Below, piece after piece: positions 10,765 through 13,008 of a stretch of 16,241 nucleotides of DNA; the stretch's first letter is position 1; the number at the start of each line of letters is the position of its first letter. The translations under genes were made by a program, and so were the position numbers. Below the pieces are notes generated by a model. That model saw only the letters and a list, made by a program, of their open reading frames with translations, searched no databases and was not told where the DNA came from. Origin of the DNA: Synergistota bacterium (GTDB lineage Bacteria > Synergistota > GBS-1); NCBI GenBank assembly GCA_025060595.1, contig JANXBX010000018.1, positions 1 through 16,241 of the forward strand, in the 5' to 3' direction.

Positions 10765-11199
10765 ATGGAAAGCTCTAAGGAAATTTTAAAAAAGAAAGGA
10801 ATAAATCCTTCGTATCAGAGAATAAAAATTTTTGAGTATCTTCAGAATAACAAAAACCACCCAACTGTAGAAATGATATATAAGGATCTGGCGTCAAAGA
10901 TTCCCACACTATCTAAAACAACTATCTACAATACTTTAAAGCTATTTGCAGAAAAAGGGATAGTTAGTTTATTAATTATTGATCAAACAGAAATAAGAGT
11001 AGACCCCAACGTAGCTTTTCATACACACCTTTTCTGTATGAACTGCAACAAAATACATGATGTAATGCTTAGCAACACTCCTTTTGAGTCCATAAAAAGG
11101 GAATCCGAAGAAAAAGGATATAAAATAAGGGAAATACAAATAACTTTAAGAGGTACTTGTAAGGATTGCTTAGAAAAAAACATTTTAAAAAGTGATTAA
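10765..11199 (+). CDS. perR: Fur-family, PerR-type peroxide-sensing repressor
   Basis: A 144-residue Fur-family regulator: N-terminal winged helix (to about 75) and C-terminal dimerisation domain. Structural zinc cysteines are C91-x-x-C94 and C132-x-x-C135. The five regulatory-metal ligands of Bacillus subtilis PerR (His37, Asp85, His91, His93, Asp104) have counterparts at His32, Asp80, His86, His88 and Asp99 with a constant offset of five, and the Asp at position 85 is the residue that favours peroxide sensing over iron sensing. This supports PerR rather than Fur or Zur. SD AAAGGAAG (10747-10754) precedes the ATG. Its neighbour, an oxidised-guanine glycosylase, suits an oxidative stress role. 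Confidence 0.8.
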   Translation: MESSKEILKKKGINPSYQRIKIFEYLQNNKNHPTVEMIYKDLASKIPTLSKTTIYNTLKLFAEKGIVSLLIIDQTEIRVDPNVAFHTHLFCMNCNKIHDVMLSNTPFESIKRESEEKGYKIREIQITLRGTCKDCLEKNILKSD

Positions 11200-11204
11200 A
11201 CCTC

Positions 11205-11233
11205 TTGACTGTTTGAATTTATAGTGCTAAATT
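11205..11233 (+). promoter_or_regulatory. Promoter of the trp-leader/symporter transcription unit
   Basis: TTGACT at 11205-11210, a 17-base spacer and the extended -10 TGCTAAATT (11225-11233) start six bases after the perR stop. Predicted transcription start is about 11240, giving only a few bases before the leader-peptide SD. Confidence 0.75.
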
Positions 11234-11234
11234 C
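11215..11234 (+). promoter_or_regulatory. Candidate operator: 7-6-7 inverted repeat over the -10 box
   Basis: GAATTTA at 11215-11221 and its exact reverse complement TAAATTC at 11228-11234 flank a six-base spacer. The right half covers the -10 box, a position expected for a repressor. It does not match the PerR box (TTATAATNATTATAA) or the E. coli TrpR operator. The regulator is unknown, and in AT-rich DNA a 7-bp dyad can arise by chance. Confidence 0.35.
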
Positions 11235-11260
11235 TTCTTAGAAGAGAGGAGATGAGCAAG

Positions 11261-11335
11261 GTGGAGCAAAAGAGAATAAGAAGTAGATATAAGTGTAAAT
11301 TTTATGTAAATAAGTGGTGGTGGCAGGTGTTATAG
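11261..11335 (+). CDS. Tryptophan-rich leader peptide (trpL-like), 24 codons
   Basis: A short frame that begins with GTG at 11261 and stops with TAG at 11333-11335. It encodes VEQKRIRSRYKCKFYVNK followed by WWWQVL: three consecutive Trp codons (TGG at 11315-11323), preceded by Phe-Tyr. SD AGGAG (11247-11251) is 9 bases from the GTG; an in-frame ATG at 11252 is too close to that SD. Three Trp in tandem is very unlikely by chance, and it lies directly upstream of competing hairpins, with the Trp codons overlapping the first arm and the stop codon in the first loop. Ribosome stalling at these codons when charged tRNA-Trp is scarce would decide between antitermination and termination. The peptide itself probably has no function after translation. 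Confidence 0.85.
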   Translation: MEQKRIRSRYKCKFYVNKWWWQVL

Positions 11336-11347
11336 GCACCTGCCATC
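11319..11347 (+). promoter_or_regulatory. Attenuator hairpin 1:2 (protector)
   Basis: TGGCAGGTG (11321-11329) pairs perfectly with CACCTGCCA (11337-11345) around a 7-base loop, extended by a G-U and a G-C pair. The third Trp codon and the following codons form the left arm, and the leader stop codon lies in the loop. When it forms, arm 2 is unavailable and the terminator can fold. Confidence 0.8.
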
Positions 11348-11390
11348 CCATGGTTCGTAAAAAGAAGATTTTAAAACCATGGAGGCAGGT
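11338..11390 (+). promoter_or_regulatory. Attenuator hairpin 2:3 (antiterminator)
   Basis: ACCTGCC (11338-11344) pairs with GGCAGGT (11384-11390), and CCATGGTT (11348-11355) with AACCATGG (11375-11382), separated by a small internal loop. Inside, TAAAA (11358-11362) pairs with TTTTA (11369-11373). It uses the right arm of hairpin 1:2 and the left arm of the terminator, so it excludes both. It would form when a ribosome stalls on the Trp codons. Confidence 0.8.
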
Positions 11391-11422
11391 CCCAACTAAG
11401 GGATAGGCCTCCATAGTTTTTT
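11379..11422 (+). terminator. Attenuator hairpin 3:4 (intrinsic terminator)
   Basis: ATGGAGGC (11379-11386) pairs with GCCTCCAT (11407-11414). An inner helix TCCC (11390-11393) with GGGA (11400-11403) stacks across two possible sheared G-A pairs. Two bases later comes a run of six T (11417-11422), as expected for rho-independent termination. Its left arm overlaps the antiterminator. Confidence 0.85.
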
Positions 11423-11428
11423 CTAAAA

Positions 11429-11458
11429 GGGGGCCTTGAAGGTCCCCTAAATCTTTTT
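11429..11458 (+). terminator. Second hairpin before the RBS, possible weak terminator
   Basis: GGGGGCC (11429-11435) pairs with GGTCCCC (11441-11447) including one G-U, loop TTGAA, followed after a few bases by CTTTTT (11453-11458). The U-run is distant and interrupted, so it may be a back-up terminator or just a structured spacer next to the SD AAGGAGGTG (11459-11467). AGGTCCC at 11440-11446 repeats the same heptamer at 11387-11393, so an alternative long-range pairing is possible. Confidence 0.4.
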
Positions 11459-11473
11459 AAGGAGGTGTTTATC

Positions 11474-11566
11474 ATGAGTATAGGAGTAATAATGGGCTAT
11501 TTTTTATCAGTCGCTTTTTTAATTGGAGGAATCATCTATGCTTTAAAAGGAGGTAAAGAACTATGA
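11474..11566 (+). CDS. Small single-helix membrane protein, putative symporter accessory subunit
   Basis: A 30-residue frame reading MSIGVIMGYFLSVAFLIGG then IIYALKGGKEL: a single transmembrane helix (about residues 3-23) with a short basic tail. It has one of the best SD sequences in the window (AAGGAGGTG, 6 bases upstream of ATG) and its stop overlaps the symporter start as ATGA, so translation is coupled. Very small one-helix proteins encoded just before sodium symporters are known (for example MetS with NSS transporters, and the family named symporter small accessory protein for SSS transporters). I do not recognise an exact family; the accessory role is inferred from context and topology. 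Confidence 0.75.
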   Translation: MSIGVIMGYFLSVAFLIGGIIYALKGGKEL

Positions 11567-13008
11567 GTTACATTATCGCTTTAGTAGTTTACACACTGGC
11601 CATGTTAATAATAGGTTTTGTAAGTTACAGAAAGGAGGGAGAAAGAGGATACTTCCTAGCTGGAGGAAAGCTCGGCCCTTGGCTAGTTTCTCTATCTTTC
11701 TTTGCAACATATTTTAGTACTAGTGCTCTTCTTGGAGGAGGAGGCTCTGGCTATATATTCGGATTTGGATGGAGCGCTTACCTTACTATGTTTCACATCT
11801 TGTTTGCAGTACTGTCTTGGGTAATTGTAGCACCTAAGCTTAAAGAGTTTGTTGAAGAAAAAAATATATTAACTATACCCGAGTTCTTTCTTGTTAGATA
11901 CAACAGTAAAGCACTTCAAGTCATTTCCTCTTTAGTTGTACTTGTCTTCTTCTCTTTTTACATGATCTCTATTTATAAAGGATCTTCTAACCTACTTCAA
12001 GTTATGATGGGGGTCCCCTATGAGTATGGAATATTCTTAGTCGCCATACCTGTTATACTTTATACTTCTATAGGTGGCTTTAGAGCTGTTGTTTTAACAG
12101 ATTTCGTTCAAGGTATAATCCTCCTTTTCGGCGCCCTATCTCTATTTGGAGCGATAGTATACAAAATGGGCGGAATTACCGCTGGCCTAGAAGCATTATC
12201 TAAAATTACTCTGCCAGGAGGAATACCTGGAAAAGCTTTAATGAGTTTAGGAGAATATGGTCCTCCCCCAATAGTTAAGTCTGGTATGATGATTCCCTTT
12301 TTGTTAAGTTTGACATTCGCTATTAGTGTCGCTCAGCTTTCTAGCCCGCAACTTATAATAAGATTCTATGCTGCTAAAGATAAAGAGGTTATAAGAAAAG
12401 GAATGCTTTTAACACCTATACTTATAGGACTTTTTGCTGTTACAGTATTTTCCATAGGACCATTTGCGCATCTTTTTATCCAAGGAGTTAAAGATCCTGA
12501 CCTTGTAGTTCCTATGCTTACCAAGAAGCTTTTTTCGGAAGGATTTGCTTCTTTAGTATTAGTGGCCGCTTTAGCTGCTGCAATGTCTACTATAAACTCT
12601 AATTTAATGGTTTTAGCTAGCTCCTTAGTCAAAGACATCCTTGGCTCAAAAAATGTTAAACTCGCAAGAATATCTGTTGTTATTTTAGGACTCATTTCTC
12701 CCATTTTAGCTTTAAATCCTCCTGGAATAATTGTCACCATAATTGGCTCAGCCTTCTCAGTTATTACCTCTACCTTTCTTGTCCCCTTACTTGCTGGACT
12801 CTACTCAAGAAATCCATCTAAAACGGGGGCAATTCTTTCAATGTTGAGTGCAATAGTCACATGCATGATATGGGAGGCTTTCTTTTATAAAAAATTATTT
12901 ATCTATAGTGTGGTTCCGGGCCTTATCACTTCAACAATATTTTATTACCTAGGAGCTCTCGTTTCTTCTCCCGCAGAAAAAGAAGTTACGTCATCTACCT
13001 CATCATGA
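11563..13008 (+). CDS. Sodium:solute symporter (SSS family), tryptophan-attenuator controlled
   Basis: A 481-residue integral membrane transporter with about 12-13 hydrophobic helices, starting with SYIIALVVYTLAMLIIGFVSY. The SSS pattern is clear: R-G-Y-F-L-A-G-G-K-L-G-P, ATYFSTSALLGGGGSGYIFGFG near residues 47-68, Y-T-S-I-G-G-F-R-A-V-V-L-T-D-F-V-Q-G in the middle, and AAMSTINSNL where Ser342-Thr343 correspond to the Na2-site residues of PutP (Ser340/Thr341). Substrate cannot be deduced from the family, which includes proline, pantothenate, sugars and carboxylates. The upstream leader peptide with three Trp codons and attenuator strongly links expression to tryptophan availability, so tryptophan, another aromatic compound or a precursor is the favoured substrate. 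The last ten codons fall in a long hairpin. Confidence 0.9.
   Translation: MSYIIALVVYTLAMLIIGFVSYRKEGERGYFLAGGKLGPWLVSLSFFATYFSTSALLGGGGSGYIFGFGWSAYLTMFHILFAVLSWVIVAPKLKEFVEEKNILTIPEFFLVRYNSKALQVISSLVVLVFFSFYMISIYKGSSNLLQVMMGVPYEYGIFLVAIPVILYTSIGGFRAVVLTDFVQGIILLFGALSLFGAIVYKMGGITAGLEALSKITLPGGIPGKALMSLGEYGPPPIVKSGMMIPFLLSLTFAISVAQLSSPQLIIRFYAAKDKEVIRKGMLLTPILIGLFAVTVFSIGPFAHLFIQGVKDPDLVVPMLTKKLFSEGFASLVLVAALAAAMSTINSNLMVLASSLVKDILGSKNVKLARISVVILGLISPILALNPPGIIVTIIGSAFSVITSTFLVPLLAGLYSRNPSKTGAILSMLSAIVTCMIWEAFFYKKLFIYSVVPGLITSTIFYYLGALVSSPAEKEVTSSTSS

Follow-up and report, generated by a model that had tools for sequence, protein, structure and literature searches.

A predicted tryptophan attenuator of a sodium:solute symporter in Synergistota, with relatives that appear to join the switch with a second terminator and TRAP

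The window analysed here is the whole 16,241-nucleotide stretch of contig JANXBX010000018.1 (assembly GCA_025060595.1), which belongs to a Synergistota bacterium from a hot spring, with bacterium GBS-1 as nearest named relative, and not to the Firmicutes-type host supposed in the original prediction. On its forward strand, a sigma-70-like promoter (TTGACT-17-TAAATT, 11205-11233; 9/12 in a consensus scan, with TG ahead of the second hexamer) is followed by a leader peptide frame, a series of hairpins and two genes. The first gene is a hydrophobic ORF of 30 aa at 11474-11566 (MSIGVIMGYFLSVAFLIGGIIYALKGGKEL), kept in three genera, which scores 16-18 bits against NF045580 (symporter small accessory protein), below the cut-off of 35, and overlaps the start of the second gene (ATGA). 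The latter, at 11563-13008, encodes a sodium:solute symporter (PF00474; E 3e-61, 207.9 bits vs a gathering score of 22.8), proposed below to be a tryptophan importer. A Fur-family regulator (PF01475), whose best match is PerR, below cut-off, occupies 10765-11199, directly 5' of the promoter.

The leader peptide MEQKRIRSRYKCKFYVNKWWWQVL runs on the same strand, as do all leader features given below, from GTG at 11261 to TAG at 11335 and comprises 24 codons, or 27 if translation begins at ATG 11252, which is in frame. The frame, predicted to be translated, has a plausible Shine-Dalgarno sequence and start codon, and it ends in Lys-Trp-Trp-Trp-Gln-Val-Leu-stop, exactly as had been read before. 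The three tandem tryptophan codons (11315-11323) overlap the first strand of hairpin 1:2 (11321-11345), in which 11321-11329 (TGGCAGGTG) pairs exactly with 11337-11345 (CACCTGCCA), and the UAG stop (11333-11335) sits in the loop. Terminator 1, hairpin 3:4 (11379-11422), joins 11379-11386 (ATGGAGGC) to 11407-11414 (GCCTCCAT), with an inner stem of 11389-11393 and 11400-11404, and is followed by T6 at 11417-11422. Antiterminator 2:3 (11338-11390) is formed by 11338-11344 with 11384-11390 and by 11348-11355 with 11375-11382, and is mutually exclusive with the combination of 1:2 and 3:4. All pairings of the original prediction, its T6 and its geometry, with the tryptophan codons over arm 1 and the stop codon in the first loop, were recovered on recheck; it had missed a further hairpin at 11428-11448, a chain of (G/U)AG triplets at 11239-11286 and the symporter gene downstream.

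In trp attenuation, stalling of the ribosome on UGG codons frees strand 2 to pair with strand 3, and otherwise 3:4 forms and terminates transcription. The folding of the leader is consistent with such a switch. The segment folds at -59.7 kcal/mol, compared with -36.3 +/- 4.1 kcal/mol for 200 dinucleotide shuffles (z -5.65); when region 1 is masked, in imitation of a ribosome stalled on the tryptophan codons, 2:3 becomes the minimum-energy fold, and when region 2 is masked the 3:4 terminator comes back. At several related loci the full-length fold, masked, still favours 3:4, so that the switch there would have to be kinetic and act during transcription. The E. coli trp switch works in this kinetic manner, during transcription.

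The symporter and its leader are shared with two other genera, represented by genomes G003 (87% symporter identity) and G002 (about 75%). At both orthologous loci the promoter, including its TTGAC- element, the WWWQVL-stop ending, the arms and both hairpins are conserved; the tryptophan codons are invariant in the three symporter leaders, as they are in trp leaders throughout the phylum, and the N-terminal half of the peptide diverges among the three genera while WWWQVL stays. The same device is found before tryptophan genes: in the source genome, G000, the trp operon (trpEGDCFBA) is preceded by an attenuator with an NWWWQ peptide, which is present also before trpE of G003 and of a further genome, G001. 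Across the phylum, a tandem-Trp leader of the NWWWQ/R type precedes 24 of the 30 trpE loci, with WWW in 23 cases and WW in one.

A strict pattern, TGGTGGTGGCAGG N0-12 CCTGCC, gave 8 matches in 185 phylum genomes, all of them ahead of a trp gene or of the symporter, and its reversed version gave none. A looser pattern (AAYTGGTGGTGGCRG) matched 51 times in 44 genomes (reversed control: 10). After exclusion of five WWW matches as chance (L014, L018, L055, L144 and L145) and of L115, since the locus ends there, 42 leaders were retained: 38 before trp genes, three before the symporter and one before an NhaC-type transporter. The last of these (L137, G057:C72:33700-37200, minus strand) is a WWW attenuator preceding a member of the Na+/H+ antiporter family (PF03553), a second, unrelated candidate for a tryptophan transporter under this kind of control. 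A 34-sequence MAFFT alignment submitted to RNAalifold returned hairpin 1:2 alone, supported by 2 compensatory pairs, since the terminator arms are out of register from one lineage to the next; alignment-free swap tests were therefore used in its place.

The tandem tryptophan codons and the arms are thus conserved in relatives, as the comparison proposed with the original prediction had called for, both in three genera and phylum-wide. This recurrence before trp genes, together with the conservation in three genera, refutes the explanation that a hairpin-rich intergenic region happens to contain an accidental WWW frame, whose probability we consider negligible. Ribosome-mediated attenuation by tryptophan gains support from the same two observations and from the presence of the device at the genome's own trp operon. 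On this comparative basis, the region 11205-11422 is very likely a tryptophan attenuator, as had been predicted, and the gene under its control would be the sodium:solute symporter with its 30-aa companion in place of a biosynthetic operon.

The leader offers an otherwise orphan symporter a likely substrate. In G002, which keeps both symporter and leader, trpE, trpB and trpA were not found in an assembly that is about 96% complete; the trp operon is one block, so that this absence could also be an assembly gap. The combination of a WWW leader and a genome in which these genes were not found points to tryptophan as what the symporter most likely imports. It is conceivable that the protein is induced by tryptophan starvation and yet carries something else, either a precursor (indole or anthranilate, for instance) or another solute: its sequence does not give the substrate, and PanF and PutP, the closest named models, are both scored far under their cut-offs. 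Against this, G002 maintains the regulated symporter, and imported indole or anthranilate would be useless to a cell without trpE, trpB and trpA; a different solute accordingly appears improbable.

Downstream of terminator 1 lies a second hairpin, 5:6, here called terminator 2 (11428-11458; stem 11428-11448, T5 at 11454-11458), which may be weak at the symporter locus because AAATC separates the hairpin from the T-run. Between the two, 11405-11412 (AGGCCUCC) can pair with 11429-11436 (GGGGGCCU) in an alternative, 4:5 (11405-11436), incompatible with both terminators. An equivalent second terminator-like hairpin was detected in all 41 segmented loci, and at least 5 T in the next 9 bases follow the first hairpin in 36/41 and the second in 38/41. 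The length of 4:5 varies from 8 pairs at the symporter locus to 12 contiguous pairs in the trp leader of the source genome and about 19 in L070. In one TrpB-like locus (L135, family f10) no T-run follows the first hairpin and the second alone resembles a terminator, a layout that would be expected if the decision were relayed by 4:5.

Whether these strands have been kept complementary was assessed with a permutation test comparing the duplex energies of native strand pairs with those of pairs swapped between loci (one locus per lineage, 20 draws). Native pairs were better for 1:2, 2:3, 3:4, 4:5 and 5:6 (all p at most 0.0005; 0.0002 each for 1:2 and 2:3); in the same test no native-pairing effect appeared for 1:3, 1:4, 2:5, 3:5 or 3:6 (median p 0.2-0.6). 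Predicted hairpins determined where the segments were cut, which favours 1:2, 3:4 and 5:6 by construction, and 2:3 and 4:5 are independent of the cutting. When T- and A-tracts were removed, 4:5 retained a median p of 0.002. Within family f1 alone, both 4:5 (p 0.0125) and 2:3 (p 0.0097) held, neither was significant in the swap test within f4 alone, and at some loci 4:5 equals no more than the level of shuffled sequences.

These data bear on a simpler account, in which 1:2, 2:3 and 3:4 suffice, as in a classical trpL leader. The second hairpin would then be a back-up terminator with no link to the switch, or a stem that stabilises the mRNA, and the (G/U)AG triplets would simply reflect a purine-rich Shine-Dalgarno sequence. 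The symporter locus lends this account some credit, as terminator 1 has a better T-run there than terminator 2 and 4:5 is just 8 pairs long, and so does the weak triplet chain of G002. The account is opposed by the occurrence of the second hairpin in every segmented locus and by the maintenance of 4:5 across lineages, which is not accompanied by maintenance of 3:6, as a mere duplication of terminator 1 would entail; an origin of 4:5 as a by-product of such a duplication was rejected for the same reason. Moreover, the chain exceeds dinucleotide shuffles and tracks the presence of TRAP, as detailed below. We regard this simpler account as unlikely, albeit worth serious consideration, and judge it reasonably probable from the strand comparisons that a 4:5 relay links the two terminators.

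TRAP, the tryptophan-binding regulator of Bacillus, is encoded by the same genome, so that the opposition drawn in the original prediction, of a trpL mechanism instead of TRAP, fails. The family (PF02081) was detected in 57 of the 185 phylum genomes, including G000-G003, and was absent from all genomes of families f4, f5, f6 and f12 that were searched. The protein of the source genome matches PF02081 with E 1e-37 and solved MtrB structures with E down to 1e-52 (fused chain) and 1e-28 (native chain), and in alignment with these structures its EKLDKGE and KIRG stretches, which we take to serve tryptophan and RNA binding, are intact. The triplet chain at 11239-11286 (UAG-2-GAG-2-GAG-2-GAG-1-AAG-3-GAG-5-GAG-3-AAG-3-UAG) is a candidate binding site overlapping the ribosome-binding site and start of the leader peptide. 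With 7 (G/U)AG and 2 AAG it is partly irregular in spacing, the reference being about 7-11 (G/U)AG repeats with spacers of 2-3 nt.

The scoring scheme for such chains was devised for this work and altered once to admit longer gaps, both versions giving the same direction. The chain at 11239-11286 scores 6.2. Among 16,870 windows sampled from the source genome, only 0.05% score as high, and the trpE start region comes next; the z of the chain against dinucleotide shuffles is 3.7. The orthologous loci score 6.4 in G003 and, weakly, 2.4 in G002. In leaders of TRAP-bearing families the mean is 4.1 (n=20), as compared with 2.0 in families without TRAP (n=22), and the difference between the two kinds of family, taken over leaders or trpE starts, has p 0.0002 by locus and 0.012 by family. 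On the reverse complement, scored as a control, the two means are close (1.8 with TRAP vs 1.5 without). The f10 loci and two of the three f2 loci belong to TRAP-bearing lineages and have no good chain.

The position of the chain differs between the two kinds of locus. A clear placement over the leader peptide of an attenuator is confined to the G000 and G003 symporter loci; where TRAP-bearing trp loci have a chain, most carry it at the trpE start (L077, for example, has GAGccGAGttGAGttGAGacGAGccGAG), which makes translational repression of trpE by TRAP probable there. Regular chains with 2-nt spacers were noted over or near the trpE start at L058 (4315-4350, source genome), L077, L092 and L146. 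Control by TRAP alone, with tryptophan-loaded TRAP on the chain choosing the RNA fold and the WWW codons having no sensing role, would fit the presence of its gene and the strong chain over the leader start. It is at odds with the retention of WWW while the remainder of the peptide diverges, with the WWW attenuators of the TRAP-free families f4, f5, f6 and f12, and with the location of most chains in TRAP-bearing trp loci, at trpE starts and not over the switch, and is thus highly improbable. TRAP as an additional layer on the symporter leader is judged slightly more likely than not.

Taken as a whole, the comparisons suggest the following model. When charged tRNA-Trp is plentiful, the leader peptide would be completed, 1:2 and 3:4 would form and the polymerase would stop at 11417-11422; polymerases reading through terminator 1 would then meet the second terminator, 5:6. 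Under scarcity of charged tRNA-Trp, a ribosome stalled on the three UGG codons would cover strand 1 and allow 2:3 to form; strand 4, thereby freed, would pair with strand 5 and disarm the second terminator, and the transporter would be made. A probable second input is tryptophan-loaded TRAP, which on the (G/U)AG chain would block translation of the leader and favour 1:2 and termination, so that free tryptophan, through TRAP, and charged tRNA-Trp would push in the same way. We give a probability of roughly 0.4, hence somewhat under even, to the full reading: an undescribed class of Synergistota RNA with a WWW leader and a six-strand relay over two terminators, fused in the GBS-1 family with a TRAP that shuts leader translation, whereby one leader of a tryptophan transporter reads both free tryptophan and charged tRNA-Trp.

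Leader-peptide attenuation in E. coli and TRAP in Bacillus are taught as alternative solutions. In Synergistota both are found in one phylum, often in one genome and possibly in one RNA, and their evolution is directly comparable between TRAP-bearing and TRAP-free families; if the full reading is true, two textbook tryptophan mechanisms are united in one RNA. The element shares with the E. coli trp leader (trpL, Rfam RF00513) the tandem tryptophan codons overlapping strand 1, the exclusive 1:2/2:3/3:4 pairings and the T-run terminator, and differs from it in the control of a symporter, in the second terminator with 4:5 and in the presence of TRAP in the same cell. Neither at gathering nor at permissive thresholds was any Rfam family matched, RF00513 included, in the window and eight related loci, low matches being miRNA-type chance hits. 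The enterobacterial his leader comprises six segments, A-F, with B:C and D:E as alternatives and E:F as sole terminator; its six-strand chain is alike, whereas in Synergistota 3:4 and 5:6 are both T-tailed at most loci.

The TRAP of B. subtilis has the RNA of leaders or genes as its direct target (trp leader, trpG, trpP), through (G/U)AG chains with a period of about 5 nt, and represses the tryptophan transporter gene trpP at its ribosome-binding site. A TRAP homolog and such chains, in Synergistota as candidate sites, are common to both systems. What sets the Synergistota site apart is its position over a leader peptide that is rich in Trp and belongs to a predicted ribosome-mediated attenuator. 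The leader of rtpA (anti-TRAP) of B. subtilis encodes a peptide with three tryptophan codons, rtpLP, which controls anti-TRAP translation behind a T-box; the resemblance lies in a WWW peptide encoded alongside TRAP, and the difference in the lack of a 1:2/3:4 attenuator.

Actinobacteria such as Corynebacterium and Streptomyces have trp attenuators with double or triple UGG codons, a terminator and an antiterminator, and in the available part of that account these precede trp operons and trpS, with no transporter case and no tandem terminator relay described there (PMC1262725). The principle of attenuation is already known in Proteobacteria and Actinobacteria (PMC1262725). A mostly open-access literature yielded neither an account of trp attenuation in Synergistota nor one of TRAP joined to a leader-peptide attenuator, and an earlier description is possible. 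Within the scope of these comparisons, the novelty lies in the phylum, the symporter under control, the tandem-terminator relay, the absence from Rfam and the coexistence with TRAP. RNA regulation in Synergistota is hardly studied; the six-strand layout over tandem terminators represents a testable new attenuator design, which in this hot-spring bacterium would serve a membrane transporter.

A T-box (RF00230) was considered for the leader and rejected, as the model has no match there and the T-boxes of G000-G003 lie elsewhere. Those examined in the GBS-1 family (L062, L063 and L064) precede carA and argG and are probably arginine-responsive.
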